In this document: piece by piece, positions 40,886 through 62,362 of the stretch
Position numbering within the stretch: position 1 is the first letter of the stretch
How the letters are laid out: the number at the start of each line of letters is the position of its first letter
NCBI GenBank assembly: GCA_030435675.1
Contig: CM059625.1
Location: 14,694,001-14,758,000, forward strand
Length of the DNA: 64,000 nt
From: Steinernema hermaphroditum
Lineage: Eukaryota > Nematoda > Chromadorea > Rhabditida > Steinernematidae
Reading direction: 5' to 3'
Notes under the pieces: model-generated
Seen by the model: only the letters and a program-made list of their open reading frames with translations
Databases searched by the model: none
Told to the model about the DNA's origin: nothing
Translations under genes and position numbers: made by a program

Positions 40886-42075
40886 CTGCTTGGCTGTCAA
40901 ATCAAATTCCATCAGTTTTATCGTATTTGCTTAAGTATTCAGCCAGAATTCACTGAAAAAGAATGAAGTCGCCAGGTACAAGTTCTGCCGACTACCAATG
41001 GTTCTTTTACGATGCATATCTGACCCATTCGGAATCGATTTTGCAGTAGTAAACACAAAGGAACAAGGGCTTCATTGAATTCCACGTGCTTTTTATTGAT
41101 CACTTGAGTGGCATATCGAAGGTGAAAAAGTGTACAAGCTCTGAAATTTTAGAATATCCCGATTGGAGAGACGTTTCGACTAAAAACGTTTGATTCCTAA
41201 CGGGCTGACTCGACGCTTGCTCCTTCCGCTTTTTGGCAGGCGTGAACGTTTTTGAACTCTGGCTCATACACTGCTACAAGTTTATACTCCAATTTTTTAA
41301 TCATAACCGGCCCGTGGCATCTGGAATCGTAGGAAGCCTGCGAAGTCCACGGTAAACTCAAGAACGGCCTATTCGGATTCCGTAGACATCATACGAAAAC
41401 CCTCTAAAATGTCAACCAAATTGAACGAAGCTTAATGTGAACAATCAAAACAGCCTAAACAATTAGAATACGCCCAGAGATGCTCGAAATGACTTCATTG
41501 AGCAGCGATGCAGGCCTCGAAAAGTTTCTCGAAGTTCTTGACGGCAGTCGCGCGTGCCTTCGGATTCAAGTTACCCTATGCTTTTCGGGCACGTTTCGTA
41601 GACCTTTCTTTGTGAGATGCTCAAAACGGAATAATCAATCGTGTTCAAGTTCGCATTTGTTTTCTCACTCAAAGCGTCAGCGACGACTTTATTGTGTTTA
41701 AGCTTCACTTCTTCCCTCACAATCCCTTTTACGTTTTTTTTTTGCTGATTCTAAGGTCTCTGGCGACCTTTATTTAAAAGCTGATCCTTCTGTTGGCCGA
41801 AACAGAATACGATCTTTTTGATTTGTGCTTGTCCCCGCCCTGTGACGGGAGATTACGGTGGACTGTGGACTCTTTCATTTGTGTTTTACGGATTGTTAGC
41901 CGTTGCTGGCATAAAAGTGAGGAAATAAGCCGAAAAACAATCAATTTCCAACTTGGGAGTGAAATTCGGACTTGTTTTGGAGTCTCTGGGGTGTTCTTGT
42001 AGCGAGTGTTCTTGTAACTTCTCAGTCCGAGTCTCGAACACGTTTCGATTCAGCTTTGTTGGCCTTCTCCCGACT
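40886..42075. other. Intergenic, nothing supported
   Basis: No coding model. A stretch at 41095-41140 (tttattgatcacttgag...) resembles 42349-42400, the right flank of the second dispersed repeat, suggesting another fragment of the same repeat family. Confidence 0.4.
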
Positions 42076-42334
42076 ACAGTTATTGCAGAATTTTCGTTTT
42101 GGTCCCCTGCAAGGGGAGCTCCAAAACAAATAGTTTGATCGGTGGGCCTCCATGAAAACAGTCTGCAGACAGTCTCTAAATTAACTTCGTTTGTGTGCCC
42201 TGTTCATCATAGAAGGACAGCCGAGAGTTTGTTTTCCATTTGCGTGTAGCTGTTTGTGGAGGGTGGTTGCAATTGGGAATGGAAGAACGGTTGATTTCGG
42301 AAGCGAACGATACTTTTGGGTGACTGGAAAACCT
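42076..42334. repeat. Dispersed ~260-bp repeat, copy B
   Basis: Counterpart of 35503-35767 with a few substitutions and a 4-nt shorter tttgtttgtgtg tract. The internal hairpin (gttttggtcccctgcaaggg with ccaaaac) is kept with one substitution. Confidence 0.88.
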
Positions 42335-42555
42335 ATTGATGAAGGACACGTTTATTGATCATTAGAGGGCCATATCGAAAGCAAAAAAATATAAAAGCCC
42401 GTATGGCCCGTGCTGCATATTCTGGGAAACACCATGACAGATTTCGATGGCAATTGGCTTGTGAACTGTGAACTCAACAGATCGAGGAGAACCCTTGTTC
42501 ACGGACAACTCGGTCGTTCTGCTGATTTCGGACTGGTTCGATCGATAGACTAGTC

Positions 42556-43150
42556 TCACATTTCCTTTTTCTCTGCTGCTTCATGCGATCTGCCAGTACG
42601 TGTCCAGTGGTTTTTCTGCACGAGATCAGCGTTCACTCCTCGACAGGAAGTCCAAACCGAAGTGTGAAGCTTCTCATTCTTCTTATTCTCTTCTGGACCT
42701 TTATGAAACCACAGGCGCAGTCGGGAAGCGAGCACCGAATGGTTGCACATGATTGTAGAGTATCCGATAAAAGTAGATTTCTGTTTGGAAACGTGGTAGT
42801 TTCCTCCAGTTAACCCATGAATTAACCATATGAAATGTGCTCTTTCATAAATAGGACTGATCGATAAAAATGACCGTAAGGATGCCTTAATTTTGCACTG
42901 TTTACTCCCAGGGCAAAATGATACAATTTTAAACGAACACTCGGTAGGAACGCCACTCGATAGAAACTTCAGCTTTTTAAACACTAAGGGCAAACTTTCC
43001 CTGTTCACGCTGGCAACGTCTTCACTGTCCGCTTCGACCATCGATGCATTGGTGCTCTTCCGAGATTTACGCCGTTTCGCTTTCGCTAGCGTTGAGAACG
43101 CGCCTGGGCGGCGACACGTTATTCGTGTTCTTCCAGCTTTCTCGCCTTAA
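42556..43150 (-). other. Unrecognised long open frame
   Basis: The minus strand is open for more than 190 codons. Its upstream part has coding-like wording (TLAKAKRRKSRKSTNASMVE, DSEDVASVNRESLPLVFKKL). No homology is recognised and no start or splice site fits clearly. It abuts the palindromic element at 43258, which may have cut its 5' end. This is an open frame of unknown status. Confidence 0.25.
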
Positions 43151-43257
43151 ATGCGTGAGTAGCTCTCCTCCTCAGCACACAACACGCGAAAAATGCGGGT
43201 TGCGAACAACATAATTCTTGTGTGGTCGTGTTAGGACCACCCACCAATTTATATATA

Positions 43258-44052
43258 CTCGCCGTCAAAAAAAACAAAGTCCGCACGTTCGGTCAGCGTG
43301 CGTGTGGTCTCCCCGATTTACAAGGGAAAACCAGAGTTGAGCATCATAGAAGCTCGATTTCTCTGCGCCTGTGGCGTTTCGTCGAAATCCGTCAAATACA
43401 AATTGTTCGTTAGTGGCCAGAGCGCCGCTCGTGCCAAATTTCGCTGCTAACCGTGTACTCTTTTCGTGCGAAAAAGTGTCTTTTCTCCGTGACTAAGTCT
43501 ATTTTTCACGTTACAGGGAAATTTCAGGACAGGTTTCTGAGCAAAATGGTAACATTCCCCCGGTATGTGATCGCAATCTATTGCAGACCTTCGCTTCTGC
43601 CGAAATCTGATAGTTCGGGATCATGCAAGATGAGCTCTACTTGTGCATTGTCGTAGAGAGCGGACTATTCTTCGATTCTCATAGCATGCTCGTACCTGTC
43701 AGATTCCGTAACCGTCACGATCGGTGATAGATTGTGATCGCATACAGAACGAATTGCTGCCATTTTGCCGATAAAACAGTTCCGAAATATCTATGCAGCA
43801 TCTAAATGAGACCTAGTCACGGAGAAAAGACACTTTGTCGCACGAAAAGAGTGCACGGTTCGCAGCGAAATTTGGCACGAGCGGCGCTCTGGCCACTAAC
43901 GAACAATTTGTATTTGACGGATTTCGACGAAACGCCACAGGCGCAGAGAAATCGAGCTTCTATGATGCTCAACTCTGGTTTTCCCTTGTAAATCGGGGAG
44001 ACCACACGCACGCTGACCGAACGTGCGGACTTTGTTTTTTTTTGACGGCGAG
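43258..44052. mobile_element. 795-bp near-palindromic element flanked by TA
   Basis: The element starts ctcgccgtcaaaaaaaacaa and ends with the reverse complement gacggcgag. The outer ~240 nt of each arm are almost perfect reverse complements (43258-43497 with 43815-44052). Pairing continues with lower identity to the centre near 43655 (for example gtatgtgatcgcaatct against agattgtgatcgcatac). TA lies directly outside both ends, as expected for TA-targeting Tc1/mariner-type insertions. No transposase frame is present. Antisense open frames in both arms are mirror images of one another. It is interpreted as a fold-back MITE and is capable of forming one very long hairpin. Confidence 0.85.
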
Positions 44053-44720
44053 TATAGAAGAGTTTTCGGGAATTTTGTCCATTTCTCAGGATTGGCCTTT
44101 TTTGGCCATTGTGACCTGGAACCGTTTGCACTGGGAGATATGGAAACGCCAGCAAATCCACGATGGATGACGCGTGTATTTTGGCGTGTATTTTGATGAC
44201 GTAGTTCGGATGAGAGAGGTTCGCGGAATTTGAGAAACACGACGAATTTTCTTTCGACGAGTTCTAGAAGGCAAAACGGAAACATAAAGCCGCTGGACTC
44301 GAACTCATTTTGCGGGGAACACTTAATTAAACAGGACAGTCGATGTATTAACTATTATTCGAGCTAGAAATTTAATCTTGATACATCCGAACTCTTCTTT
44401 GAGAAAAAATGACTCTGTTTCGCTTAGACGCTTTTTAAAAATCCCTTGTCCGATGGACAATTTGTCAGGTCGATATTTGCAGATTTTGCTGAAACTGCTC
44501 TGAAGCTAGTGAGCTTCCTTTGCACTGCTCTCTGGAAGAGCGTTTCGATAAGGTCGATTTCTAGAATCCAGAGATTTTTTTGGCTCAAGTTCGGCTCAAG
44601 TAGATGTAGCGAAGGCGGCAATCGAGTCAGTCATGCTTCTTGGCCATTTTCCATGAAGCGTGACGGACCATAGATATGTTATTCTCAGAGAACGGCGCAA
44701 AAATTTAAGTTTTTGGGTTT

Positions 44721-44851
44721 TTGGCGCTCTTCGCATCAGATACTCTTCTTGCGGCACTCTTTTTTCGTGGCGCTCTTTTTGAGGCACTCTCTTTTCGTGG
44801 CACTCTTTTTTGAAACGCTGTTCTTCAGAGCGCTCTTTTTGGGGCGTTGTT
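44721..44851. repeat. Degenerate ~30-bp minisatellite
   Basis: Alternating units of the type ggcactcttttttcgtggcg and ctctttttgaggc recur about four times. On the minus strand they read as a charged repeat (KECHEKRVPQKERHEKRVPQ), probably without coding meaning. Confidence 0.75.
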
Positions 44852-45245
44852 GTGGCCATATCGTCACCTCTCTGTACACTTTCCAGTAATTAAAGCCCGT
44901 ACTCGCTTTGCTTGTACTTCTTGGGAACCATTTTTGATCGTTTCAGGAGTTTGAGAATGAGTTGTACGTTGGAGGGATGTGAGCGGTTCGTTATACAAGT
45001 CAAGAGGCATTGCTTTCCTGCTGGGAGACGCCTGTCTATAGGAGACCAGACAGCGCTGCAAGAGAGACAGAGGCAACCACTCCTCATTCCAGCGCCAGTC
45101 AGTCGAGCGATTGTCGTAGCGGTCAGTCGGTTCTTCCTCAGTTCTCCAGATCGGTCGTTCACAACTTGTCGGCTTTGGTGCGTTTCATTCTCCCCCGCCA
45201 CTTCCATGCTTGTTCCTTTCAGGTAAGAAGAGTTCTGAAGCAGCA

Positions 45246-45720
45246 ATGGCAGACCGCCCCGTTTGTTGCAATCGCTGCATTTTCTGCGCGAAGCGTTGCG
45301 GCAGCGAGCACCTTCAGAATTCTCCGACTGCGGTGAGTGGCTGGTGAGAACTGTTGTGCTTATCTCTCGCTTTCAGAAGTCGAGCAACCTGTATGAGGAA
45401 GTGAGCCTATCGAAGAAGCTGATGCACATTCCACGCAGGAGTCGTCCTAAAATGTGATTACGTAAGACGTGTGTTTACGTATTTAACTTCGTTTCTCGCA
45501 TTTTAAGAACTGTCGCACATTGTACGAAGAAGTTGATCCGCCTAAGAAGCTGATACACATTCCGCGCGGGGAAACTACCAATGCAAACCTTACGCCGGCG
45601 ACGTCGGTGCAGACGGAAAAGAAGACAAAGGACAACGTGACTGCAGGTGTTCAGCCACGCGTGTTGGAGGTGGTGCTCTTCATACGAATTATTCTGATTT
45701 TAAATTTGCTTTACAGACCA
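45246..45720 (+). CDS. Start of an unrecognised repeat-motif gene
   Basis: An ATG at 45246 opens a cysteine-rich start (MADRPVCCNRCIFCAKRCGS) ending at a gtgagt donor near 45332. An in-phase exon at about 45377 reads KSSNLYEEVSLSKKLMHIPR and another after ttttaag at about 45509 reads NCRTLYEEVDPPKKLIHIPR, so the motif LYEEV-x-x-x-KKL-x-HIPR occurs twice in succeeding exons. A weaker third echo (FKKLKHINLENEDF) lies near 45845. The exon-end phase of the second repeat is uncertain. I do not recognise the family. The cysteine pairs at the start could bind metal. Confidence 0.4.
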
Positions 45721-46139
45721 TCGCGAAAAACGGTCGTTGTGATCCTTGAACGACTCACTTATCCGGGAACGTCTTTTTCGTGCTGGCGAAAAAGGCCGAA
45801 GAGGTCTCTGAGTATGAAGGCTTCGCTGCACTGGACTTCAAGAAGCTGAAGCACATCAACTTGGAGAATGAAGATTTTGTTAAGTACGTTCTTGACCTTG
45901 GATGATATCCGCAAAATGGAGGAAGACTACTTAAAGCAAAAGAAAAAGGAAGAATGAGGTCAAGTAGCGCGAGCTACTCCCAAAACAGTGAAATCTGGGA
46001 GGAAAAAGGGCCGAAAGGGAAAGAGAAAAGCCGTGACAGGTGGGCCGAAATGATGAGCTTTTTATACGATAAAGAAAAGATTTAGAAAGTGAAACAACCG
46101 AAATTGGTATTTCCCTTGCTGAAACCAGTTACTTGACCA

Positions 46140-46434
46140 CCGACGCCCGTACTGTCTTCAACGGTCCAAGAGTTGTGTTTTCGACTACACGCTCATTTCC
46201 GATGAGCTCATCCTTTGGATTGCATACCGCACAAGAAAAGGCTACTATCGGTGAGTCTATAATCACTGTCTGTGAAGTATATTCAAAATTAAACGTTTCA
46301 GTCACTTCCCGGTGGTCGAAGAGCCAGAAGTGGTCAATTGGAAATTTCCGAAAGTCCCTTCGCAAGGTCGAGTTCTTCAATGACCTCATCAAGAACGTTG
46401 AAGACTGGACCGAGATTGACGGCAGCCTCTGATC
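46140..46434 (+). CDS. Two further exons of unrecognised gene
   Basis: One frame reads CVFDYTLISDELILWIAYRT then RKGYY. A 51-nt intron (donor gtgagtct, acceptor cgtttcag) follows, and the frame continues in phase with HFPVVEEPEVVNWKFPKVPS to a stop at about 46427. Upstream, 45960-46060 encodes a lysine/arginine-rich stretch (KSGRKKGRKGKRKA). The segment 46085-46150 is echoed at 46672-46740, followed by another basic stretch, so the locus has duplicated internally. It may belong to the same gene as 45246-45720 or to a tandem paralogue. Confidence 0.35.
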
Positions 46435-47097
46435 CCGCCCCTTTGATGTTACCCGTCCATATAAGATCATTTTGTTTTGTCGACGATGTTTAAGTAATCA
46501 ATAAGTGCCTCTATAGTGCTTTCGTTGTGTCAGTGCCTCGATAGCACACTCACTTATACGACAGTGTGCTGAACAAAGCGACGGACCAGCTGAAGCTGCA
46601 TTCAGTGAGAGAAAAGACTGAAAAGCGCAAACTGAAGTATGCGAACATAAGGTGTTGTGTTTTCGTGTAACAAAAGTGAAACGACCGAAGTTAGTTCCAT
46701 TGCTGAAAGCAGTTGCTTAATAAAACTACTGTCTTCAACTCTGCGTCCGATTCTTCTGGCTTGGAAAGGTCTAAGAAGAGCTCTAGGGGATCTCGAAAGG
46801 TTGGAACGAAGGGAAAACGGAAGACCGCAAGAATCTCTACGAACGCCCGTCTAATTTGAGATCATCGCCGGGGGATTACGAGAGAATCGACTAGCCCAGT
46901 AAGGTGAAGAAAGGTCCCAGTAACGAGGGGTAATTCCACCTTTGTGAACCTGTCATAACTTATCTAGCTTCCCAAAGAGATTATCGGTTCGAAGCGAGGA
47001 GAGCTCTACATCTGAGCTCACAAGAGCGAAATAGCCGAGCAGCTCTGTCGCCATTGAAAGACCTTCCGCGTTTACCATCGAATCCTATCCAAGAATT

Positions 47098-47578
47098 TTG
47101 TTTTTAACAACCTACGGCCGCGGAAGAAGATCGAGAAGAAGGAGAGGCCAGGCGTACAGTACGTGGAGATCGTCGATGACGAAAACTTTGAGCGGATTCA
47201 GAGAGAAGCCGTTGAGGGACAGTATGTCGGTCTCTCCGGATGCTCCCTTCCCTCCGCATGAGTACTACAGCGCTTTTCCTGCTCAGCCTTCGGCCCAAAA
47301 GTACCAGTACCTCGCCGCCCTCGGCTACCAGCACTTCGGCTTCGAATTTCCCAGCTGCAGAATGTATCTGGTGCCGAGTATCCTCTGTACACTCAGCATG
47401 TGGCAGAGGATTACTCTTCAAAATTCCCCAACTTCGAAACACAAGAATCTGAGATCAGGCTCGATCAGAACGGAATCTTCCCACCCGAAGAAGAAGAGGA
47501 ACTTGCGCCGAATTGGAACTTCCCGGACAGCTTCTCCGAATACGAAGAACAAGTTCCATCTTACAGTCAACTGCTGTA
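47098..47578 (+). pseudogene. Broken acidic-tail ORF
   Basis: Three coding-looking frames follow each other: ERPGVQYVEIVDDENFERIQ with REAVEGQYVGLSGC, then PHEYYSAFPAQPSAQKYQYL with ALGYQHFGFEFP, then LYTQHVAEDYSSKFPNFETQ with FPPEEEEELAPNWNFPDSFS ending PSYSQLL. The changes near 47250 and 47350 lack good splice signals, so frameshifts are likely. Probably the 3' end of the 45-47-kb gene family. No recognised domain. Confidence 0.4.
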
Positions 47579-47797
47579 ACTTCAATTCAGTAAAAATAAA
47601 GAAAATAACCTGATTTGTTAACGCATCTGCTTAACTGGTTCAAAAAGGGGTTATGAGCCGAACGGTCGACATTTCCTAATCGCTAGAATTTGAACAGTCT
47701 GTCTAGTCTCACCGGCTGCGTATCATTGCTTGGGCATTTCCCAATTCGCTATCTTGGCTGCGTTCCCATCGGATGCAATCGCTGATCCCTAGTGATC

Positions 47798-48701
47798 ATG
47801 ATCACTTGCTTGGCCGCCGAGCCTCTCCATATGCTCAACCTTGGATATCCGATCTATGGTGAGACATTGGTTCTGTCCACTCGAATAATTCTTTTCTGTT
47901 TAGGTCCGTCCATGGCCTTCTTTCAAGGATTCCCACAACAGCAAGGCATTGTCTATTACCCTCCATCCATGGAGCAGCTGATGCCAGTTCCGCTTGCCAT
48001 TACATTCCCGCGTGGAGCTGAAAATCAGCTCATGCAGTATGTCCATGGACCTTGCAATTGTCATGTGAACAAGTGTGTTGTTTAGAACGTTCGGTGGAAA
48101 CTACGGGCACCATAGAACATACATGCGTGATTTCACCAGCAGTTATGCTTCATTTTGCTCATCAGCTTCTGAATCTGAATCTCGCCGCTATGCTGACGTA
48201 ATACCGGAAATTCCAGCTATTATAGACTGATGAGCTATTTTTAGTACTATTGCCGAACATTGTATAAGACGGAGCAGTGCGAGGCATTTCGGAGCTCCGG
48301 AGAATGCTGCTTTGGCGACCGTTGTCACTTCGCGCATGGAGAAGAAGAGCTGCGCCCTCGTCGCCAGCCGAAGCGTGTAGTAAGTATTCTCGTTATACCT
48401 TATAGTATAGATTTATCAACTTTATGGAGTAATTATTTTAATTAACATTAATCTGATGAAATCATCTCCATAAGTCTTTCCGAATATACGTGTCTCGCTC
48501 ATTAATTAATTTCGCACTATTTAGGTTAAAAAGAAGAAGTTCAAAACGAAGTTCTGCAACAACATCGAGGAATACGGCAGTTGTCGTTATGGCGCGAAAT
48601 GCCTGTTCATTCACCCTGGAGACGACGTACACAAGAACGGTGTGCAAGAGGGCACCTTTGAAGTACGCGAAGGTGCAAATTTTGGCGAAAACTCAGGTTA
48701 A
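47798..48701 (+). CDS. Tandem CCCH zinc-finger RNA-binding protein
   Basis: Two C-x8-C-x5-C-x3-H fingers mark the TIS11/TTP-like family that binds AU-rich RNA. Worm members include POS-1, MEX-5 and OMA-1, regulators of maternal mRNA. Exons 47798-47858, 47904-48064, 48245-48379 and 48525-48701 join in phase to 177 residues. Finger 1 is CEAFRSSGECCFGDRCHFAH preceded by LYKTEQ. Finger 2 is CNNIEEYGSCRYGAKCLFIH preceded by KKKFKTKF. The linker is longer (24 residues between fingers) than in vertebrate TTP. The N-terminus is hydrophobic and glutamine/proline-rich (FFQGFPQQQGIVYYPPS). The donor at 48065 was chosen because it preserves phase and another exon could intervene. Poly(A)-like aataaa is at about 48805. 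Confidence 0.85.
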
Positions 48702-49198
48702 GCGTGCCTTTCGACGTGAAGAAGAAAGAGCCGCTTATATGTTAATTAACTATGTTGTTTTTATATGATATATTTCCTATATCTCGCTTATAATGTGCTG
48801 TGTGAATAAAGCACGCGAAGTTATTTGCGTTATAAGTTTGTCCGTGAGCAATATCTGGTTATGTCGACCGTGCACGGATGGTTTCATGTGAATATATCGC
48901 CCACTGATACACACATTATAGGATTTACGAGGTCATTTGCGTTCACAGAAGAAAAGATATATAGATTTTGACAAGCGCGCCTTATTCGTTTTTCTATGGC
49001 CACCTTCGTTTCTGGGCATTTAGTTCTGGACATCCACCGTTTCTTCTTTTTTCAAACGGACAAATCATCGTTTTTCGTGCCGATACTCATACTTCGTTGT
49101 TCTGTTTTCCATTAAATTTTTCCGAGTGTTTCTCTGAGTGTGTTGCCGTTTTTTAATCGTTTCGCTCATCAGTTACAACACAATTTTTCATTCCAGAG

Positions 49199-49788: not shown

Positions 49789-49925
49789 AGCGCGGTGGGG
49801 AGCGGTCGTGTCGTCCTCTGGCTCTCCTGCCTAGCGGTCGATCTCGGTCGTTCGAAATCGAACTCTGACCAGCACCCCGTTCCAATCCGTCGTGGCAGTC
49901 GTGGAACGTACGCCAATTTACAATT

Positions 49926-52754
49926 ATGTCAACTGGATTACGCAAGAAGAAGCTCTACGCCTGCTCAGTCAACGTTCGTTCTATCGCTACACCAGGAAGA
50001 TTACTTGATTTTCAACACGCAATGGAGTTTATTAGATCAGACGTCACGGGAATTGCGGAAACGAGGATTAGTGGCCACGGAAGAGTGGATTACTCGAATG
50101 GTTTTACTTTATACTACTCTGGATGCTCCGATGGACGAACCTACAGCGGTGTAGGATTTTACATCAATTCCACGATGAATAGGATGGTGAAATCGGTGAT
50201 TTATTACTCGGACCGAATGATCAGCCTGAAGTTGCGAACCGAAGGAGGCCAGACTATACGGTTTATACAGACGTACGCGCCGCACTCGGGTTATGATGAA
50301 GAAGAATACTACTCTTTTCTTGATGATTTACGAGAACTTATCGGACGAGAACCAAGCTCCTATCTGGTGATTATGGGCGATTTCAACGCGTCGATCGGAC
50401 CCAATCTCTTTGGCGAACAGTACATCGGACGGTTTACATCTGATACGAGGAGCGAAAACGGTCATATACTTGCCGACTTCTGCGAAGCCCAACGGCTGTT
50501 CATAGCTAATAGTTACTTCAAGAAACATTACTCCCGCCGCTGGACATGGAAGGCTCCAAACGGAGCGTATTGCAAAGAAATTGATCATTTTCTAACGACA
50601 AACCGACGGCTTATTACGAATACGGATGTTATAAACCGTATTAATACAGGAAGCGATCATCGAATTATCCGCTGCACTATTGCAATCCCGTGGAGAAAAG
50701 TTATCCGACAAAAGCGCAAGGAAAAACGAACATTGGATAAGCGTCTGTTTCAACCGATTCTTATATCGGAGTTACCGAAGATACGTTTAAATGGAAGCAG
50801 CAATGATTTGTACGAGCAGATTACTGGATCGATTTACCACTCATACATGAACGCGTCTGAACCAGATCAAAATAGTGAAAGGATATCAGTGGCTACGAAA
50901 TGTTTACTCCAACGCCGTCATGAACTGAAGTTTGGAATATCCACGGACCCATTACTACGAATTGAATACGCAGAAGTTTGTAAATTAGCGAGGAAAATGT
51001 TATCGGCGGATCTGAGGGAACACTACATTCGGATAATGGAAAAAGCAGTGAACGAGAATAGACTAAGACGCGGAAGGGAATCGCTACGGAACTGTTTTCG
51101 ACCGCTCACACTACTACGATCCAGAAATGACTCAGGGAATCGCGAATCTTCAAATTCAGAAGCCGTTCGCGCCGTACAAGACTTTTACAACGATTTATAC
51201 CGTTCTGAATTTACCGACATTATGGCTCCGACAACTCCGATTAACATCTCTATCTCTGTACAGGAAACGCTGGAAGTTTTACTTACTGGAAAGAGACAAG
51301 GAACACCAGGATTAGATAACGTAACTCCGGAATGTCTTCGATCCGCGGCAAATCTATTAGCTCCGATCTTTACCATACTGTTCAACTCAATCGCCCAATT
51401 CGGAGATGTCCCGGCTCAACTCGCTTTCTCCAATACTATACTACTCTACAAGAAAGGAGATGCGACCGACGTTGCCAACTACAGGCCGATTAGCTTATTA
51501 TCCACGCTCTACAAAACGCTTACAAAGATATTGATGAAACGCATCCAGCAAGCGATAGATGAACCAAGCTCTCCGTTTTCTGTGAATCAAGCCGGATTCC
51601 GCGCAGGATTTTCCACTACAGATCATCTGCAAACGCTGAACACTATCGCGGAAAAACTTTATGAATACAATATACCATTATACGCTGTTTTCGTGGACTT
51701 CTCCAAAGCCTTTGATAGTGTGGAATTTAACGCCGTCTGGGAAGCCTTACATTATTACGACATCGACTCAAATGTGATAGATATGATCAAATTACTGTAT
51801 GCGAACGGAAGATCAGCGGTATTTATTGATGGTCAAGCAGCCGCATTCGAAACAAGAAAAGGTGTTCGTCAAGGAGATTCGTTGTCGCCTCTGTTATTCA
51901 TTCTTACCCTACAATACGCGATGGACAAACTGAACTGGGACGAACGAGGACTGAAGGTTAATGGTCAACGGCTGAACTATCTAGCTTACGCAGACGACAT
52001 CGTATTATAAGCGCACAATTTCGACGAAGCGCAGGATTTACTACGAGAATTCTCCATTGCGACAAGACAGATAGGATTGAATATAAATATTTCGAAGACC
52101 AAGTGGATGAATCAAGACCGTATCCCTCACGATGGCAGAGAAATGTTACTAGGAGACGACGTTATAGAGAAGGTTGAATCGTTTACATATCTTGGGCAAC
52201 TGATGCGGTGGCCGAGAAACCACAACGCGGAAATATCTCGACGAATAGCGGCAACTTGGGCGGCATATACCCGTTACAGGCAATTTCTGATCTCCAGACG
52301 CGTGCCTATCCCTCTGAAGAAACGACTGATCGATCAATGTATCCAACCCGCGATGTTATACGGTTGCGAAACTTGGGCTCTCACGAAAGCGACTTGGAAA
52401 AGGATTGAACGCGCACAGAAACGCATGGAAAGAAGAATATTGGGTATTCGGTTAATTGACAAAATACGCAGCGAAGAAATACGACAAAGAACGAATCTAA
52501 CGGATTGGAAAGAAGCTGCAAGAAGAAGGAAGTGGAACTACGCGCAAAAACTATCAGCGGAAAAGATGAAATGGTCACAGAAAACTACTTTATGGAATTT
52601 ATCGACAGACTACGACGAACCGAAACGCTTATGTGGAAGACCTCGAGTAAGATGGGCAGACGATCTGAAGATACTACCAGGCCGCTGGAACGAAGCTTCG
52701 AATGCTGATTGGCAGACATATTGTGAAAGCTACGTTCGCTGTGAACCGAGATAG
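49926..52754 (+). mobile_element. RTE-like non-LTR retrotransposon, nearly complete
   Basis: One 943-codon frame with a single in-frame TAA at 52008-52010. The N-terminal part is an APE-type endonuclease (CSVNVRSI, VTGIAETRI, IQTYAPHSG, YLVIMGDFNASIG, TGSDHRIIRC). The middle is a reverse transcriptase (TPGLDNVTPECL, YRPISLLSTLYKTLTKIL, FVDFSKAFDS, GVRQGDSLSPLLFIL, LNYLAYADDIVL with the catalytic YADD). The C-terminus carries YLGQLMRW, MLYGCETWAL and RPRVRWADDLK, as in RTE/craniofacial-type elements. The stop falls just after YADDIVL, so the thumb is lost without readthrough. The 3' end is short and repetitive (aaatgtaaatgtaatgtaaa), typical of RTE tails. The 5' end is not defined. The low damage indicates a recent insertion. 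Confidence 0.92.
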
Positions 52755-52814
52755 CTAATAAATGTAAATGTAATGTAAATTACATTGATGTTTTCAGGTG
52801 TGTGAAGAACATTA

Positions 52815-53500
52815 TCAGCAAAAAATGAAGGAAACCTGCTTGCAGAAGAAGCCGCAACCATACATTATCATCTGAAGTAACGAATGTAACAGCGAGCTTG
52901 CCCAGGGACTGAATATCCTGACGCACTCCACGATTAGTTGCAGTTTGAGCTTCTCTAGCACTTGAAGTATGGATTCTTCACCGAAATAGACACCGACACC
53001 ACGAACGTGGTTGTGCTTGAACCCCTCGAAATCGGTCATAGCATCAGCCCAGAGGAGGTCGCACGCCAATTCGGGATCATCGAGCGGGCGTTTGATGGCC
53101 CGGATCTCGTCGAGAGACTGTAGTTTAGGCGAGATACCGCAGTGCATGCACAGGATCCTTTTTAAGACGACAGCGGCGAGCGGCAGCACGGCGAAGAGGT
53201 CGTTGAAAGCACGCCACATCTCGAGAGCTTCATCTGCGTTTCCGATCTTTCTGTTGATCTCGTCGAAAAAGCCGTAAACATGATTGATTGCTTGCGTTTT
53301 GTGGTTTGTGCGCAGCATGTTGTAGCACCCCTGACGGATCATTCTCAACGCACAGAGCGAGGTGATGCGGTCCAACAAATCCGGTCCACGATCACTGTAG
53401 TCGCCGAGAAAGAGGAGCTTCGCCAAATTCGGCTCATTCGTTGCTCTCCGCGTCGAACATCGCCATGATACGATACAAGTCCAGATACTGAAAGCAAAAG
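52815..53500 (-). pseudogene. PP1-like serine/threonine phosphatase, catalytically damaged
   Basis: The minus strand has the PPP-family order LDLYRIMAMFDAESNE, LAKLLFLGDYSDRGPDLLDR, NHVYGFFDEINRK, WRAFNDLFAVLPLAAVVLKR, ILCMHCGISPKLQSLDEIRA and ACDLLWADAM. GDxxDRG is kept (GDYSDRG). The GNHE motif reads TNHK and HGG reads HCG. The region of the C-terminal metal-binding RAH is replaced by VECVR followed by frame-shifted sequence. A frame change also occurs near 53445. No GDxHG exon was found upstream. It is one of the many worm PP1-like paralogues and most likely a pseudogene. The retrotransposon ends about 60 bp to its 3' side. Confidence 0.75.
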
Positions 53501-53514
53501 TTCTCATCCACATT

Positions 53515-54180
53515 CAGTCCGTCTTCTCGTTGATTTTTGCACTTTATTCTCATTTTGCAAAAGTCACTTTTGATTTTAAATTACCAATGAATCGGTTGGC
53601 GGACTGAAAACGAAAAGAAATTTTGTAGGATGCATCAGGTTATACACTGTGGGATATCCAAATGAATACAGAACTCCATAATTTGGAATCTAGGTCAGAA
53701 GTACTAGGATATCAGCGAACTTTCCCATCCGCGGAATTTACCATCCGCGGAATTTTCCCGATACCGGCGCTGGCGTGGCGTGCGCAAAAAATGGCGTGGT
53801 GCGACCGTCACCGTCGTCTCGCGCGCGGTCCTCAGGGCGATCGTGGCGGAGTAACTCTCGCGCCGATTACTGTATTTTCAACTCTTTCCTGACTTAGACT
53901 TAGATATCATGCGATCAGTTAGGCTTCTGCAAGTACGTTAAACATTTTAGAATGCCTTTGCAGAATGAATGCGGACCACCAACACATGTAACTCGCTCCC
54001 CATCTTAAGATTCGCTGTAAGACGTAAGAGCGGACACGTTGCAGCTTTCTGCTCGCGAAAACGCGTATAATTAGTTGCCTTTAAGGCGGTGGATTGTTTT
54101 GATTTTTGTGCGAACTTACTGGTCGTTTAACTTTGTCTTATTTCAGACGCAAGCACTCTGAGGTTGACCTATCCAATCTC
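53515..54180. other. Intergenic
   Basis: No gene supported. A short stretch near 53908-53950 (catgcgatcagttaggcttc) repeats part of the glucosidase exon at 54255-54300, so a sliver of that gene is duplicated here. Confidence 0.5.
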
Positions 54181-55910
54181 ATGGGGAGGCTGCTCGTCTT
54201 ATTGCTAAGCGTTCTAGCGCTATCTAGTGCAGTTAATAGATCAAACTTCAAAACATGCGATCAGTCAGGCTTCTGCAAGTACGTTAAACATTTTGCGATG
54301 TTAAGAATATTACATGTCTGGCAATTTAGGCGACACCGCAATCCTGCAAGCAAAGTGGAATATGCTGTCATTGCTGATTCTGTGAAGATAAACGAAACCA
54401 GTGTCAATGCCGTCTTAATGAGGACTGAAAATGAGCTGCATTTGACAGTTCCACGTTTGGAAGATTCTACTATTCGAGTTCTCATTGATGAGAATGCTAA
54501 CGCTCTCCGCGCACGTTACCAACCGCTTGATGCTTTGGCGAGGGAACGTTATCAGCAAAGGTAGGATTGTTGTAGTTCACAGAAAAGCTATACATGCTGC
54601 TTATGCATCTAGAATTGCGGAGTTTGACGTGACGAAAGGATCGGTTGCCGTAAATGTTGCCAGCGGTCACACTATCTCTGTACCATTCCGAATTGACGTA
54701 CAGAAAAAGGATGACCTTTTCTCAGTTTGAATTCATGCAGGTTTTGAGGTTTGAACATTTCCGTACTATTTCCGTATGGCGAAGGATTTTGGGAAGAATC
54801 TTTTAAGTCGCACACCGACTCGGAACCTCACGGTATGTGAACATTTGCAGTAAAGTTGCAAATATGTGCGATTACTACAGGGTCCAGCTCAGGGTGTTGG
54901 TATGAGCGTATCGTTTGTTGGATTTAAATTTGTCTATGGGCTGCTTGAACATGCTCATTCATTTGTTCTCCACGCTACTGCGTAAGTTTTTTGCAGCGGT
55001 GATTTCGTTTAGTTATATGTTGCTTTAGAGGCCAAAAGTCGTATCGCATATACAGTTTGGATGTGTTTGAGTTTGAAGTCAACACAAATATGGATCAGTG
55101 CCGTACATTATTGCTCACAATCCCAAGCAGTACGCTAGTGTTCTGTGGTTAAATGCAACCGAGACCTGGATTGATATTGATTCTTCTACTGCAGACAAGG
55201 TAATATTGAGTATCTCTTGTTGTTTTTTAATCAAACTATACAGGGTGTTCTCGCATCGCTGGTGGATAAATTCCGATCATCGCAAGAGGTTTCGCAGATT
55301 GATGCCCACTTCATGTCGGAGTCAGGACTGATTTACCATGCCCAAAGACGCCAAGCATTATGATGATTGGAAGCATAGAGATATTCACAATATTTACGGC
55401 TTTTATCAGGTACATTGTGCCATATTATTTTACTATATTGTCTTTCAGCATTCCTCAACGTATCGCGGTCAACATGTATAGCGTGGCCGGAATTCCCCAT
55501 GTTGGTGCTGATGTTGGTGGCTTCTTCAAGAACGTGGACGAGCAACTTTTGGCTAGATGGTATCAGGCACCGGCCTTCCAACCATTTTTCCGTGCGCACG
55601 CGCACATTGACTGCAAACGGCGAGAACCGTATCTGTTTAGTGAGAGGACGAAAAATGTGATTCGTTATGCTATTCGCACTCGTTATAGCTTCCTGCCTTA
55701 CTGGTACGGTATTGTCCGAATAGTCCTAGTTGTCATAAAATTTACTTTTGGTGTACTTTGTTCTATGGGCATAGCACAGTCGCAACGCCCGTGATGCCTC
55801 CTCTCTGGAGTGAATTCCCCAAAGATGAGTCCAGCTTTGATGAAGAATGTGAATGGATACTCTTATGGCGAAAATCGCGCATTTCAAGTTGTGTTTAAGG
55901 TGTTCCTATT
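54181..55910 (+). pseudogene. GANAB: Glucosidase II alpha (GH31) partial copy A
   Basis: Glucosidase II alpha trims glucose from N-glycans in the ER. This copy has a start with signal peptide (MGRLLVLLLSVLALSSA) and the N-terminal hallmark VNRSNFKTCDQSGFCK. N-domain pieces end near 54730, then come MSVSFVGFKFVYGLLEHAHS, SYRIYSLDVFE, IIAHNPKQYASVLWLNATET and ASLVDKFRSSQEVSQIDAHF. A jump follows to [20 protein letters not shown] and finally GIPHVGADVGGFFKNVDEQL with WYQAPAFQPFFRAHAHIDCK and YSFLPYWYG. The barrel segment with the catalytic nucleophile is absent. A 22-nt remnant intron near 54562, stops and frame changes (for example after NMDQ near 55096) confirm decay. Introns are retained. Confidence 0.85.
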
Positions 55911-56094
55911 GTGTATTGCAAGGGTATTTCGTCTTATATTCGTCTTATATGTATAAAGTTGCACCGCACACGAAGACGAAGATCGCTGCCTTCCTTCTTT
56001 CTAGAGTCTAAAGTCTAGACTAGACAGAAAATCCGCGCTTAAAAACCGATGCCCCTTATTCGCGCCCTCATTCGTGCTTCCAACAGACGCACGA

Positions 56095-57532
56095 ATGGCA
56101 GTAAATTTGGCAGGAATGGCTCCCCCCACCGAACCGTTCACGCCGAACTTCTACGCCGGCGACCTGATTTGCGACGGATGGACGGTGAGTCGTTTTACGT
56201 CCAAACTGTTTTTTAGCAACTGCTTTGCAGGTCGAAGGAGAAATCGGGCGAGGCGGCTGTGGAGTTGTGTATCAAGTCTCCGCTAAGGTGACCGAACAAC
56301 TCAACGGCGTCATGACGGAGCGCATCATCCACGCTGCGATGAAGTGCGAGGGCGTCGACCATGATGGTCGTTACAGTGAGACTCTTCACTCGGAGGTTAC
56401 GGTGCTCAGACGCATGCAACGTTCCGAGCACGTGTGCCGCCTCTATCGAGCCGGGCGCTTCTCCGCCTCCGTGAACGTAGTGATCATGTCGCTCGTCGGA
56501 CGCTCGCTCTCCTTCATGCGTCGCCTGTGCAAGGATCGGTGCTTCTCTACTTCCACAGCGATTCGCGTCGCATTCCAGTGCTTGGAAGCGATCCAAGAGC
56601 TTCATTTCATCGGCTACATCCACAGGTCAGTAAATAATCAACTCTCGCAGAATTTTGCAAGATTTTCATTTCAGGGATATCAAACCTTGTAACTTCGCAA
56701 TAGGCTTGTACCCTGATGACGTTCGTCGAGTCGTTCTCCTGGATTTTGGATTCTCACGCCAATATGTAAGTGCTTTCGATCAGCAGACCTTCTCGTTACA
56801 GTTACACTTCTTTAGCTTAAAAAGGGATACGATGGACAGATGCGGCATCGGTATCCCCGTAGTCGAGCCCCTTTCCTGGGAACCCCTCGCTACTGCTCTA
56901 TGAACAGTGCCGATGGCAAGGAGCAGGGTCGTTGTGACGACCTCTGGTCGTGGATGTTCATGCTCGTTGAATTTATCGAGGGTAAACTGCCGTGGAAGAA
57001 TTGTGCAACGCCTGTCGAACTTAACAGGGAAAAGCGCCAAGCACTCGATACGCTTCTCGATGGATGCCCTCATCAACTCTACCGTATCTTCGATCACATC
57101 CAAACGCTGAAGTACGCTGATCGCCCCGACTACAATATGATGTTTAGTACACTTCGCATAGTATGAAAGGAATTTATTTCCATATCTAACTTTGACGTTT
57201 AGATATGGGAAGTGGAGCAGGTGTCCCAAGAGGACCTTGTTTTAGACTGGGAAGCAGGAGGCCGTTGTCATAAGCGTTACCTCCAGGCTGAGATGTCGCG
57301 CCCACAAATGAAAAAATTGAAAGTGCGACCGGGCGTTGCGCCTATGCAGCCAATGTTGAATTTAGACTGCGCCTATTCCAGTGACAACACGGTTTCGCCG
57401 AAGACAAACAAATCGTGTCCGTCGCCTGGTTCGGCTCCGACTTCCGGACCGCGTTCACGGCGCCGTGTGCCGCGTATCATCCGCGATCTATTTTCGTGTA
57501 TTTTTTTCTGTGGTTGTGTTCATAAAAAATAA
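56095..57532 (+). CDS. CK1/TTBK-like serine/threonine kinase
   Basis: A complete kinase of the CK1 superfamily, worm TTBK-like group, many of which are germline/sperm-expressed. Five exons (56095-56184, 56231-56625, 56675-56765, 56816-57160, 57203-57532) join in phase to 416 residues. Motifs are the glycine loop GEIGRGGCGVVYQV, the ATP-anchoring lysine in HAAMKCEG, the hinge VVIMSLVGRSLSFMRR, the catalytic loop YIHRDIKPCNFAIG, DFG in VVLLDFGFSRQY, the activation end FLGTPRYCSMNS, and RCDDLWSWMFMLVEFIEGKL typical of the family. The C-terminal ~80 residues are disordered and end in a basic-hydrophobic-cysteine tail (RIIRDLFSCIFFCGCVHKK) that could be a lipidated membrane anchor. It sits between the two broken glucosidase copies but is itself intact. 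Confidence 0.93.
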
Positions 57533-57932
57533 TTATGCCGCTTTTGAGTTTTGTGCGTCGTGCGCCACGCATCCTCCACATCGTTTTTTCGTTTGTTGTT
57601 TGTTGTGGTTGCGTTGAGGATTTATGCCGGTTTTGAGCTTAAATTTTGGCATTTCGCAGTTGGCATTTTCGGGCCTGTTCCCGATGGCCTTGTTGAGGTT
57701 CGGCTCGTGCCGAGAATTTGGCCGTTGAACCGCTTTGGCTGGATGTCGAACCACTAGAGCTAGGATTCCAGTTCGCTTTAAATCTCTTTAGGTTAGATAA
57801 ATGTTTGTTTTTATGTTTGAATGCGCAACATTTGTTTCGAAAACGCTCCTTCTGGGCCACTATTTCAAACGGTGTTTATTAGCAGCCTTCGTTCTTTTTT
57901 AAACATAGTAAAACTTATGCATCTGTTTTCAG

Positions 57933-58318
57933 TCGAGGATACCAAGGATAATGAAGAAAAGCCCAAGAGGCGAGGCGTGTCGTCCAGCCGTCATTCAAGA
58001 GAAGCCCAAATGGCGCTGGTGCCACATGGTCACCGGAACTCCAAAGTAATGTCTAGCAGATCTTCATATCGCTAACTTTATGTTCACGATTTATAGATAT
58101 GCGAATCTGAGCGTCAGAAAAAATTATTCCAATGTCGTGAACGAGAACTGCGGTCGTCAGCACACGGACAAGATCGTCGCATCAGATCTAATCATTGCCA
58201 ATGTTCAAACCGATCAAAACGTATCAGAAACGAGTTGCCTTGAACTTATTGCCAACGATGATGAAGCTACTGGACTCTTCGATGTTATTTGCGATGGGCG
58301 GAAGCGGTGTCACGAGAG
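57933..58318 (+). pseudogene. Possible orphan 3' exons of a kinase paralogue
   Basis: After an acceptor atctgttttcag, the frame reads VEDTKDNEEKPKRRGVSSSR and HSREAQMALVPHGHRNSK to a gtaatg donor near 58046. A second segment from 58095 reads YANLSVRKNYSNVVNENCGR, then TSCLELIANDDEATGLFDVI to about 58318, where the glucosidase copy B begins in the middle of an exon. The first exon resembles the disordered tails of TTBK-like kinases and follows the intact kinase on the same strand, but no connecting splice was found. Alternative frames exist for the second segment. Confidence 0.3.
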
Positions 58319-59055
58319 CATGCTGAACATGCTGATTCATTTGTTCTCCACACTACTGCGTAAGTTTTTTGCAGCGGTGATTTCGTTTGCAGTTATATGT
58401 TGCTTTAGAGGCCAAAAGTCGTATCGCATATACAGTTTGGATGTGTTTGAAGTCAACACAAATATGGATCAGTGCCGTACATTATTGCTCACAATCCCAA
58501 GCAGTACGCTAGTGTTCTGTGGTTAAACGCAACCGAGACCTGGACTGATATTGATTCTTCTACTGCAGACAAGGTAATATTGAGTATCTCTTGTTGTTTT
58601 TTAATCAAACTATACAGGGTGTTCTCGCATCGCTGGTGGATAAATTCCGATCATCGCAAGAGGTTTCGCAGATTGATGCCCATTTCATGACGGAGTCAGG
58701 AATGATTGACGTGTTCATCTTCTTGGGTCCAACTCCTAACGATGTGTTCCGTCAGTACTCTACTCTTATCGGCGTTTACTCCCTTCAAGGTGTAATTGTG
58801 GTTTCCTTTTTTTATCGTATGAACAGTATTCCGGGTCAACTAAGGACTTATTTACATAGAACTACATGAATGACCCGAGCGTTTTCTGTGGTCCTGGAGT
58901 TACCACACCCAAAGACGCCAAGCATTATGATGATTGGATGCATAGAGATATTCACAATATTTACGGCTTTTATCAGGTACATTGTGCTATATTATTTTAC
59001 TATGTTGTCTTTTAGCATTCCTCAACGTATCGCGGTTAACAGCTGCGTTGGAGTT
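58319..59055 (+). pseudogene. GANAB: Glucosidase II alpha (GH31) partial copy B
   Basis: Starts abruptly at gctgaacatgctgattcatt and is almost identical to 54945-55330 of copy A, including intron sequence. It then keeps about 215 bp that copy A has lost (MIDVFIFLGPTPNDVFRQYS and a weak exon [20 protein letters not shown]), and continues [16 protein letters not shown]. In GH31 the nucleophile lies in WNDMNEPSV. Here the matching position is Tyr (NYMNDPSV), so no activity is possible. About 110 residues of barrel are missing before it. The copy ends at 59055, just after RIAVNSC. Confidence 0.82.
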
Positions 59056-59069
59056 GTTTAATCATGTGC

Positions 59070-59225
59070 TTATATGTTCCAGACGGCGATCACAAAATCA
59101 ACGTTCTGGAGAACAGTGCGCCGCTGCGTCTACGTTTACTGCGGAATCGAAGTCATCGGAACTCACGCCGGCGAGGTTTACTGTACTGGCGTCTCCATGC
59201 ACCCGACTATCCTCCACGGTGGCCT
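59070..59225 (+). pseudogene. IMMP1L: Mitochondrial inner-membrane protease subunit 1-like fragment
   Basis: One exon-sized piece reads TVRRCVYVYCGIEVIGTHAG and EVYCTGVSMHPTI, equivalent to the N-terminal membrane helix and the catalytic-serine motif (SGPSMEPTI) of IMP1-type signal peptidases, which mature proteins in the mitochondrial intermembrane space. The catalytic-lysine region (KRVIG) and everything after are absent. Sequence passes into a GBF1 exon around 59228. Short, so moderately confident. Confidence 0.6.
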
Positions 59226-59227
59226 CG

Positions 59228-60640
59228 GCATCGCCGAACGCCCGTTCTCGAGTGTCTATTGCATTTGTTGCATGTTAAACTTCTTCCAAACTCACTGACT
59301 GAAGCCGAGGATTTCGTGGACTCAAAGAAATGGGTTTCAATATCTAGAGAGCATTCCAAGTAAGTGACACAAAAGGGGTCACATTTGAAGGTATCTCTTT
59401 ACAGGAATGTCACACACAGTAAAAGCAACAGTGAATTGTTGAGTTGGTTGGACTTGGAGGCTCGAGTTCGGATTCGAAGAAAAGCAGGAAACCTACAACA
59501 GAGCATGAGGAGCTTATCAAGGTAGAGAGAATATCGTTGTCGCAAGCTTTTCGTATTTCTCCTTACAACGGAGACGTAGTTGACCCTGTCAGGTTCCACA
59601 GAAACTTGGCACACTGGCAGGTCTGTTCGCGGTCGTTCAGGTACGTCGTCGCAGATCCTACGACTACATAAAATGACCACGTTTTTTTTTGCAAAATACG
59701 CATATATGTTCATGCCTATGGGACGCTAATTGTGCTTAGTTAATCTACTGCTCAAAACCTACCAGTGTGCCAAATTCCAGCGCGACCTGAGGGGGTCAGG
59801 TTTGAACATTCCCTTGTTAGTCTTTATTGCATGTTTTATGCATCTCCTATTACTTTTCCGTTCATTGCAGAATGCTCGTTTTATGATAGCGGAATCCAAA
59901 CCGGAACAACTAATGAAGGATGTAAAGTACCTGACTTCTTCCGCTCTCACTGAGCTTATGAACAGTGTTTGTGCAGCTTCTTCCACCGTCTGAGGAACAT
60001 CCGCAGCGAAACAGACAAAGAAGCTCGCTGAACAGGAAGAAGATTCGATTATATTTTACTTTGAACTGATGATTAGTGTGGCCGTTGATAACAAGGATCG
60101 GCTGACGGTTATTTGGCCCGTTGTTGAACGTCATCTTCAGTGGCTCATGAAAGACTTCGGCCAGAATCCGCTTATCGTTGAGCGTGTCGTAGTCGGCCTT
60201 CTTCGCCTGACCGGGCGTGTTTTATACCATTTGAACGACAAGGATGAAGATGGCATTGCTGACAACGCTTTACAGTCGCTCTCCATGCTCCTTTCGCTAA
60301 AGCCTCCTTCGTGGTTCATGTTCTCGCGCCGGATTGCTTATGGGCTCCATGATCTGCTTCAAGCAAAAGCGGCCAACGTCCACCAAAGCAAGCACTGGCC
60401 ACTGATCTTTGCGTTGATGGACGCTGCTGGTGCAGCAGCCTGCGCTTCCGCCCAGGTGGATGCGTTTTCTGTGAGTAGCGGTTTTTAGATTATTCATATT
60501 GCTTCTTTTCAGTCTGTGCCCCAGAGTCGCCTAGTTCAGAGCCGAGCAAGTGGATCAAACAGTGTTTGCTGATGATCGTGGTTATACCACCGATAATCCC
60601 GCTCTTCTCCAAAAGCCGGATCTACACCAACCCACGTTAT
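59228..60640 (+). pseudogene. GBF1: GBF1 (Arf guanine-nucleotide exchange factor) fragment
   Basis: GBF1 activates Arf1 at the cis-Golgi and recruits COPI. Only the middle HDS-type part is present. VLECLLHLLHVKLLPNSLTE and AEDFVDSKKWVSISREHSK match the vertebrate LLPKAMVEVEDFVD region. Then follow SELLSWLDLE after an intron, FMIAESKPEQLMKDVKYLTS with SALTELMNSV, FYFELMISVAVDNKDRLTVI with VERVVVGLLRLTGRVLYHLN, FSRRIAYGLHDLLQAKAANV and, after a further intron and frame change, ADDRGYTTD. There is an in-frame TGA near 59991 between SSTV and GTSAAKQTKK. The Sec7 catalytic domain and both ends are missing. Confidence 0.82.
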
Positions 60641-60779
60641 GTGAGTTCATGTAGGAATGTAGATAAATTGCTTGTCGCTTTTGTTACATATAGCATATTT
60701 ATAAAGACTTACAACTTCATCGAATGCGGAGCACAGAAAAGTCGTTGCAGAAGTTGCATTCTGTCTCCTTTAGAAGGAT

Positions 60780-61202
60780 AGCTCTTTCTACTCGACCCGG
60801 TCTTCTGGGCCGGCGACCTGACGTTCTCCTTGACGTTCGCCATCGTCGTCTGCAACAGCTGCAGAGTCGCCGACGGAATCATCGTCTCGAAAATCGTCGT
60901 ATGTCTCGAAATGTTCCGAACTGTGTCAAGAGCTGTGTATTCTGTTAATGGTAACCAGTTTCTCTGGCGCCTGCTTGAGACACAGTACCGTGATGCAATT
61001 TGGTTCGCTCATCTCACCCTCTCTGGCCTTCCTCTCAAGAGCCGACGTCTTGTCATTCACCTCCATAGCCAGAAACATTCTCAGCTTTTTCACCATCATC
61101 GCCACTTGCGTCTTTCTGTGCGAAGGGCGCCTGCTTCTCATGAATCAGCACAGGAGTCACGTCTACAGAAGCATCAAAAAAGGTACTGCGGCCTTTTACT
61201 GA
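60780..61202 (+). pseudogene. Unrecognised multi-pass membrane protein fragment
   Basis: The plus strand reads LLDPVFWAGDLTFSLTFAIV and VVCLEMFRTVSRAVYSVNG. After what looks like an intron (about 60950-61040) it reads DVLSFTSIARNILSFFTIIA, TCVFLCEGRLLLMNQHRSHV and ends SIKKGTAAFY. Two or three hydrophobic segments are evident and no family is recognised. It follows the GBF1 fragment without a start of its own, so it may be another captured piece. Confidence 0.35.
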
Positions 61203-62362
61203 AAATAAGAAATGGAGACTGATAGAAAACGTTTCTGGCAAATCGTATTCCTCGTCTTCTACACTGCGTGCTTTGTCCAGACTGGCTGAACAGATGGAAA
61301 TTGATAGAAAGGAATATTCAGTTTTTTAATCTCGCGATGTACATGTACCAATCGAATAAATTCTATCACTCTTTATCTGAACAAATTCCATTTTCGAATA
61401 AATATATACATAATAATAACATTAACGTGGTTCATAATTTGCGTTCAGTGACATATACATGGACAGGGACTAAAAAGTACAAGGCGGAATTTGCATATTT
61501 CCGGCGGAATGAACCCGAGTTACCACACACAAATACGCAAATAGAAGAAGATGAAGAGACAGCGCTACTATTGGGAAGCGGGAGCGAAGCTTGCGATCTA
61601 GCAGGTGTGAGCAAAAATAATAAGTTTCGACTGGATGCGACACAATGTTGAAGAAAGGAGGGAAGGCTTCACAGGAACAATGAACGAGCACACTAACCCA
61701 CAGTAGACGAAAGGCACTTTCATCGAAATAGAACTGTTCGACTAGCGTTTTCACGTGCCGTCAGCGGAGCAACGGACCGAGCGATACAGTAATACCCACA
61801 ATACGAAATCTCATTGCATATATACAAAAAACGACGACGATTGTTTCATTTGAACAGGCGAACATGGAGAAGAGACGTCATGACAGTAGTGAAATTCTTT
61901 GCATGATTAGAATACCCTTATGTGAGTGCGCGATACGGTGGATCACGCGTTAACCGGCGTTACTGGGGTTGTATCCTTCTCAGGCGTCTCGAGCGATACC
62001 TGTCCACTGGTCCGTAGTTGATGAGACCCTAAAATACGGTTGGTAAGGGGGATGCATGCGGAGTTTAAAACAAATTTAAAACACAGCCGGAAATGATAGA
62101 GCCTACGAGAAGTGAAAAGAATATGCCTCTCGATGTTTCGCAATTTGCAGAGGATGCTGTTTTTGCTAAAACGGCTTTGAGTGTGAGATTTTCTCGTGTT
62201 TTTCATTATCAGTGATGCATAATTGTGATCTTCTTCAAAACATTCGTCTATAGTGATACGTAACTTGGCATTCTTCTGTACTTATAAGTGAGACAGAGCA
62301 GGCCTGTGTGAATAGAAAGCGCTCAGGTCTGGGAAAAAGTGCATCTATGAAAGATGAAACAA
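61203..62362. other. Intergenic, nothing supported
   Basis: AT-rich. A 127-codon plus-strand frame (61268-61651) has an acidic C-terminal stretch but no recognised domain. The right end is the 3' flank of the calcium ATPase. Confidence 0.4.

Follow-up and report, generated by a model that had tools for sequence, protein, structure and literature searches.

The stretch of ~7 kb described here from the genome of the insect-parasitic nematode Steinernema hermaphroditum is very probably a mosaic of dead gene fragments, built up in layers by segmental duplications. It lies in a window of 64,000 nucleotides (C5:14694001-14758000; assembly of 90.65 Mb in 60 contigs) and consists of a head-to-tail chain of intron-bearing pieces of AGK (acylglycerol kinase), GANAB (alpha-glucosidase II), IMMP1L, GBF1 and Srbc-type receptor genes (Table 1). 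Positions without prefix refer to the window, those with the prefixes C1 to C6 to the contigs of the assembly.

Each of the named pieces can be traced to a diverged source or relative at another place in the assembly (C5:10.11, C3:16.49, C5:14.91, C2:7.02 and C1:16.89 Mb), the divergence from the sources amounting to 3.5–22%. The main matches obtained in the genome DNA search are 142–1,534 bp long at 78–99% identity, which excludes chance similarity. Since these searches skip very common words and score the best candidates only, all copy counts given in this study are lower bounds.

An initial annotation made from the letters of the sequence had described a same-strand chain of four internal gene pieces, namely GANAB, IMMP1L, GBF1 and a membrane protein. 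All four are indeed found on the plus strand; the AGK piece and the IMMP1L 3′ end had been missed, the IMMP1L piece is a 5′ and not an internal piece, and the mosaic continues to the left with GANAB copy A and a protein-kinase gene copy. The supposed membrane protein is a fragment of an Srbc-type receptor gene as judged from its relative on C1, the open reading frame of which gives a modest Srbc match (PF10316, E 2.8e-6), and the window's own receptor frame matches no Pfam family. The kinase copy is in addition 80% identical to C5:14493594-14492310 over 56151-57440 and gives a Pkinase match (E 3.1e-9). In the genome DNA search no source was assigned to 55936-55986, 57443-57662 and 60726-60758, and the adjoining 60759-60801 has a 43-bp match of 88% at C5:14907201-14907159(-). 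The neighbouring phosphatase piece (52818-53513) is located on the opposite (minus) strand to the chain. A search against Rfam found nothing in the window.

Table 1. Pieces of the gene-fragment chain and their positions in the window.
Feature	Position	Strand	Match or remark
41-bp copy of 54254-54294	53908-53948	+	97.6% identity
GANAB pseudogene copy A, from 5′ end, with internal deletions	53954-55935	+	compared with C5:10.11 Mb
Protein-kinase gene copy	55987-57442	+	84% to C2:7017613-7019082
IMMP1L 3′ end	57663-57804	+	C5:14916922-14917075 (84%), C3:16490956-16491092 (83%)
AGK-like (acylglycerol kinase) piece	57811-58319	+	C3 matches of 90% and 96.5%
GANAB pseudogene copy B	58323-59047	+	89% and 87% to C5:10.11 Mb
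IMMP1L 5′ piece	59043-59242	+	91% to C3, 95% to C5:14916671-14916873
GBF1 pseudogene piece, parts of four exons with introns	59243-60725	+	88% to C3
Annotated model QR680_002906, GBF1 remnant	60069-60569	+	residues all placed in the window
Srbc-type chemoreceptor gene fragment	60799-61197	+	78% to C1:16887110-16886708(-)

Two copies of GANAB with a common lesion

GANAB copy A aligns at 90% identity to C5:10115154-10113726(-) and continues in pieces of 92%, 91% and 92% down to 10111550, with 1,433 bp matched at 89.8%. It is recognized as a GH31 domain (E 1.5e-29) and matches GANAB structures in a PDB sequence search. Copy B aligns in two parts, 58323-58786 to C5:10114130-10113650(-) and 58812-59047 to C5:10113149-10112911(-), and its open reading frame at 58555-58869 matches structures of Neutral alpha-glucosidase AB with a best E of 4.4e-10. 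At the parental locus, open frames with GANAB-like sequence extend from a signal-peptide-like start onward, and one frame of 291 amino acids matches GH31 positions 76-326 of 328.

The two copies are 96% and 94% identical to each other and have many substitutions in common that are absent from the parent. They also share a 10-bp frameshift deletion which the parent lacks, and GANAB was thus frameshifted before it became two copies in the window. Further deletions are private to each copy, with B keeping sequence that A has lost. Introns are retained in both GANAB and GBF1 (introns A, B and C of the latter), as the initial annotation had noted. An origin as processed retrocopies is rejected for this reason, and with introns kept and sources elsewhere in the genome the earlier notion of shuffling at the DNA level is borne out.

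The IMMP1L-AGK-GBF1 cluster and its derived copies

The three remaining genes with a common source, which we take to be IMMP1L, AGK and GBF1 (names assigned by recognition), are same-strand neighbours at C3:16.4905-16.498 Mb. The search for parental loci proposed earlier has been successful, with GANAB at C5:10.11 Mb and IMMP1L and GBF1 at C3:16.49 Mb. At C3, IMMP1L consists of one open frame encoding 163 residues, with 88% identity to a protein of Steinernema glaseri, the AGK gene gives a DAGK_cat match (E 7.7e-11), and GBF1 harbors a Sec7 domain without stops at C3:16495454-16496058, upstream of the part matching the window piece. A stretch of 1,111 bp with the AGK end is present twice at C3, the two being 96% alike. 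The GBF1, IMMP1L and receptor pieces of the window are identified through the C3 and C1 genes together with the domain matches found there; Pfam searches with the short window frames of all three and PDB sequence searches with those of IMMP1L and GBF1 returned nothing.

The AGK piece matches C3:16492288-16492449 (90%) and C3:16492659-16493001 (96.5%) and carries an internal deletion of ~210 bp at 57973/57977. In the IMMP1L 5′ piece, which aligns over 59043-59245 to C3:16490554-16490760, the upstream splice acceptor is kept and the start ATG is lost, a loss common to the window and the C5 copies. The IMMP1L 3′ end contains a derived stop (CACTAG) shared with the copy at C5:14.917 Mb. The GBF1 piece as a whole corresponds to C3:16496612-16498137.

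A much closer relative of the right part of the chain is located ~160 kb away on the same contig, where GBF1 copies are found at C5:14.91 Mb. Window positions 59201-60349 and C5:14911646-14912792 are 98.9% identical over 1,149 bp, the IMMP1L–GBF1 join included. In GBF1, the window and both C5:14.91 Mb copies have lost 1 bp of exon B and show a TGA in exon C; neither lesion is present at C3. From C5 copy 1 the window GBF1 differs at 9 of 1,105 aligned bases (five shared features); from C3 it is separated by 48 differences among 601 positions of exon C and by 44 among 243 positions of intron B. Direct and inverted copies make the C5:14.91 Mb neighbourhood a mosaic as well, with a further source at C4:10.356-10.359 Mb. 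Between its two GBF1 copies, the segment C5:14913285-14915000 is 100% identical to C5:12850923-12852637(-) and is a very recent insertion.

Because the C3 locus already has IMMP1L, AGK and GBF1 side by side on a single strand, the common orientation of the chain appears to be largely inherited from this cluster. Of the eight pieces, the cluster accounts for four and GANAB for two, leaving about four independent orientations, which by our own arithmetic would agree by chance in about 1 of 8 cases.

Joins between the pieces

The joins are found at 58319/58323, at about 59041-59047 and at 59242/59243, within ~25 bp of the positions named in the initial annotation (58318, 59055-59070 and 59228). 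That annotation had placed all of them inside exons. At 58319 an AGK exon is joined to a GANAB exon and at 59242/59243 an IMMP1L exon to a GBF1 exon, both out of frame, whereas the GANAB–IMMP1L join is positioned upstream of the IMMP1L start and outside the IMMP1L exon. The IMMP1L–GBF1 join recurs at C5:14911646-14911690 with different DNA on its left flank; it was thus copied after it had formed, which argues for more than one round of duplication and not a single capture.

Signs of repair are unevenly distributed over these junctions. At 58319 an insert of 3 nt creates CATGCTGA twice, which 3% of 300 randomly chosen sites do equally well. For the AGK deletion the repeat has 5 nt, a length also attained at 42% of random sites, and at the two other tested joins there is none, so that a repeat exceeds background at one of the four. 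Located 5 bp to the left of GANAB copy A, the 41-bp duplicate of its sequence resembles a templated insertion and as such would support template switching. With this single insertion as the main point in its favour, repair with local copying may tentatively be suggested as the origin of the joins.

The GANAB–IMMP1L join coincides, to within a few bases, with the place at which the C5 copies carry ~110 bp (C5:14916558-14916671) that are lacking at C3. This breakpoint upstream of IMMP1L has been re-used and could mark the end of an element or a fragile site; its re-use counts against a purely random history. Most breakpoints, by contrast, differ between copies.

Relative ages and proposed history

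For GBF1 exon C compared with C3 a Ks of 0.161 is obtained (199 codons), and for GANAB A compared with its parent a Ks of roughly 0.164 (122 codons, in a stretch that includes intron sequence). Since the two values are close, both pieces could have moved at one time. AGK exon 2 gives a Ks of 0.043 to C3, based on 2 synonymous changes in 74 codons, and its upstream intron is ~10% diverged from C3. The AGK piece may thus be younger than GBF1 and GANAB, the synonymous counts being small. Further tiers of divergence are seen between GBF1 and its C5 copy (~1%) and between GANAB A and B (4–6%).

In the history which we propose, the intact genes at C3 and C5:10.11 Mb would be the origin, from which copying proceeded outward. 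Deletions would then have broken up the pieces, and break repair, either of polymerase-theta type or MMBIR-like, would have connected them through end-joining and template switching. More than one round of duplication would have taken place, in a stretch that keeps collecting duplications; both this order of steps and the direction of copying are part of the proposal. The frameshift and stop of GBF1 and the 10-bp deletion of GANAB, each common to the copies, imply that the pieces were dead before they were copied again, and shared lesions of this kind help to order the events. Most likely the pieces are passengers without protein function.

Alternative origins of the chain

The initial annotation had named capture by Helitrons or Pack-type transposons as a source of such chains, with segmental rearrangement or mis-assembly as further options, and of these segmental rearrangement fits. 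An assembly error that joins unrelated loci is barely credible, as it predicts pieces identical to their parents, whereas the observed ones are 3.5–22% diverged and carry lesions of their own. In addition, the 59242 join occurs a second time at C5:14911646. Two annotated proteins on C5 also include these pieces, although, being products of this very assembly, they are no independent evidence.

Transport of the fragments as cargo of a Helitron, a Helentron or a Pack-type transposon would account for several intron-bearing gene pieces in a single orientation and for a breakpoint upstream of IMMP1L used alike in the window and the C5 copies. Helitrons are present, with at least 43 Helitron_like_N match rows in the genome and genes with Rep domains. 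The orientation, however, is partly inherited from C3, and the other breakpoints as well as the divergences differ between copies. The 3′ ends proposed for inspection earlier were not found either: on both strands of 53401-61700 no CTRR followed by T is accompanied by a hairpin whose stem reaches 6 or more, although zero is also the chance expectation (0.52 on average in 50 block shuffles). Inverted repeats around the chain amount to 19 weak pairs, none of them convincingly bounding it; the pair nearest to both outer edges (53924-53939 and 60738-60753) has 16 nt at 81%. Two Helitron copies from the genome share 98% identity over 6.8 kb and terminate, in a Helentron-like manner, with a hairpin that lacks CTRR and adjoins T runs. 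Apart from 52 bp at the C5 kinase relative (E 1e-4), they match neither the chain nor the fetched source loci, in a comparison that covers one family with two copies and a defined 3′ hairpin end only. Capture by an element is not needed to explain the chain and is not supported by these data; we regard it as quite improbable, and retain stepwise segmental duplication as the preferred reading.

A 48-bp repeat just right of the chain (61248-61295), present in at least 16 other places, was considered as an element end and rejected. In the four places inspected it corresponds, at 85% identity, to an internal part of a palindromic element of ~850 bp, distinct from the ~803-bp one described below, and hence does not bound the chain; possibly it is a host exon carried by that element.

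Annotated gene models and the chimeric-gene question

Two models of the public annotation, both with protein records, include pieces described here. QR680_002906 in the window encodes 153 amino acids in two exons (60069-60470 and 60513-60569) and represents GBF1 re-started after the lesions. QR680_002925 is annotated as a GBF1-IMMP1L fusion (C5:14916038-14916319 and 14916707-14916952), in which the donor is located at the join (CCAG/GTATTC) and the acceptor is the one directly before the IMMP1L ATG at C3, the ATG itself being lost. The IMMP1L piece of the window keeps the same acceptor.

These models, together with a Ka/Ks of 0.37 for GBF1 exon C compared with C3, could speak for the chain as an expressed new chimeric gene or a non-coding RNA locus under selection. 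The Ka/Ks value, however, can also result when a parent under constraint is compared with a copy evolving neutrally, both exon-to-exon joins of the window are out of frame, and the frameshift and stop of GBF1 are common to the copies. Because of these joins and lesions a chimeric protein from the window is unlikely on the evidence of its reading frames, and a selected chimeric gene or RNA locus is very improbable. QR680_002906, QR680_002925 and similar models in S. hermaphroditum may instead be pseudogene remnants.

Judged from its position, the IMMP1L acceptor is an apparent trans-splice site. Trans-spliced genes of nematodes have at their 5′ ends a splice acceptor that is sufficient by itself. 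It is conceivable, if rather doubtful, that such a 5′ end, once moved, serves at once as a cis acceptor, so that shuffling of DNA would readily yield spliced chimeric messages, QR680_002925 being a case. If this fusion model is really spliced, trans-splicing would be tied to the birth of chimeric genes.

Other repeats and duplications in the window

To the left of the chain, exon-like pieces in 46000-49000 are 82–95% identical to C2:331-338 kb (and C2:374 kb) and to C1:17.023 Mb, and the mosaic may extend further into this part. A retroelement with endonuclease and reverse transcriptase (49918-52778) is 100% identical to C2:3834037-3836899. Its flanks match C6:125345-126143 and C6:127253-127946, which are ~1.1 kb apart there, so that the element has apparently inserted into a further duplicated block. 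A repeat of ~104 bp (53616-53719), 98–100% identical in 9 other places and with flanking inverted pieces, is like one end of a TIR element.

Further repeats comprise a palindromic mobile element of ~803 bp (43254-44056), the arms of which are 84% alike and which is 93–100% identical over at least 755 bp to at least 20 other places, and a repeat of ~510 bp (38951-39463) found at 97–99% identity in at least 14 places. Local tandem and inverted duplications of 82–1,130 bp with 79–96% identity are seen in 9138-15884. In the control stretch 26001-46000 two high-copy elements dominate and 39 of 2,533 candidates were scored; it therefore gives no gauge of the frequency of mosaics.

Comparison with known systems

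Canonical Helitrons end in TC...CTRR and Helentrons prefer TT, according to the accessible part of PMC4067079. The chain resembles their captures in its intron-bearing fragments of one orientation and differs from them in that no element ends were found. For polymerase-theta joins of C. elegans, templated insertions and tandem duplications are described in the excerpts available of PMC7368036; compared with such scars, the chain has one clear templated insertion and one suggestive join, and the other tested joins are without signature.

For S. hermaphroditum itself, 45% of the complete benchmark genes are duplicated and 43% single-copy, which may reflect real duplication or isoforms (PMC12629237, in the portion available), and among the matches listed in a full-text literature search none was on segmental duplications in this species. 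Partial and chimeric duplicates are many in C. elegans, where an initial classification put 116 of 290 duplicate pairs in the chimeric class; in the available sections of a review (PMC3449122) this number is called a likely overestimate. Like these duplicates, the pieces of the window are DNA-mediated truncated copies fused to other sequence; unlike them, several donors and more than one round are stacked in ~7 kb, together with disabling lesions.

Segmental duplications are defined as >1 kb long and >90% identical, and mosaic ones arise in two steps, aggregation and then re-duplication (PMC3878106, in the part accessible to us). The length and identity are reached by GBF1 compared with C5:14.91 Mb, the remaining pieces being shorter or more diverged. 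The chain contains low-copy intron-bearing DNA copied from identifiable other loci and, in the IMMP1L–GBF1 join shared with C5:14911646, a secondary duplication of already juxtaposed pieces. As far as these sources describe the mosaic segmental duplications and duplicon blocks of human and insects, the chain is alike in that several sources were gathered and then duplicated again, but its pieces are much smaller (about 0.14–1.5 kb, at 78–99%) and several fall below the cut-off. No description of this locus was found in these sources. The locus thus displays a known kind of genome scrambling and not a new mobile element, and it shows the stepwise building of dead-gene mosaics in a nematode genome.
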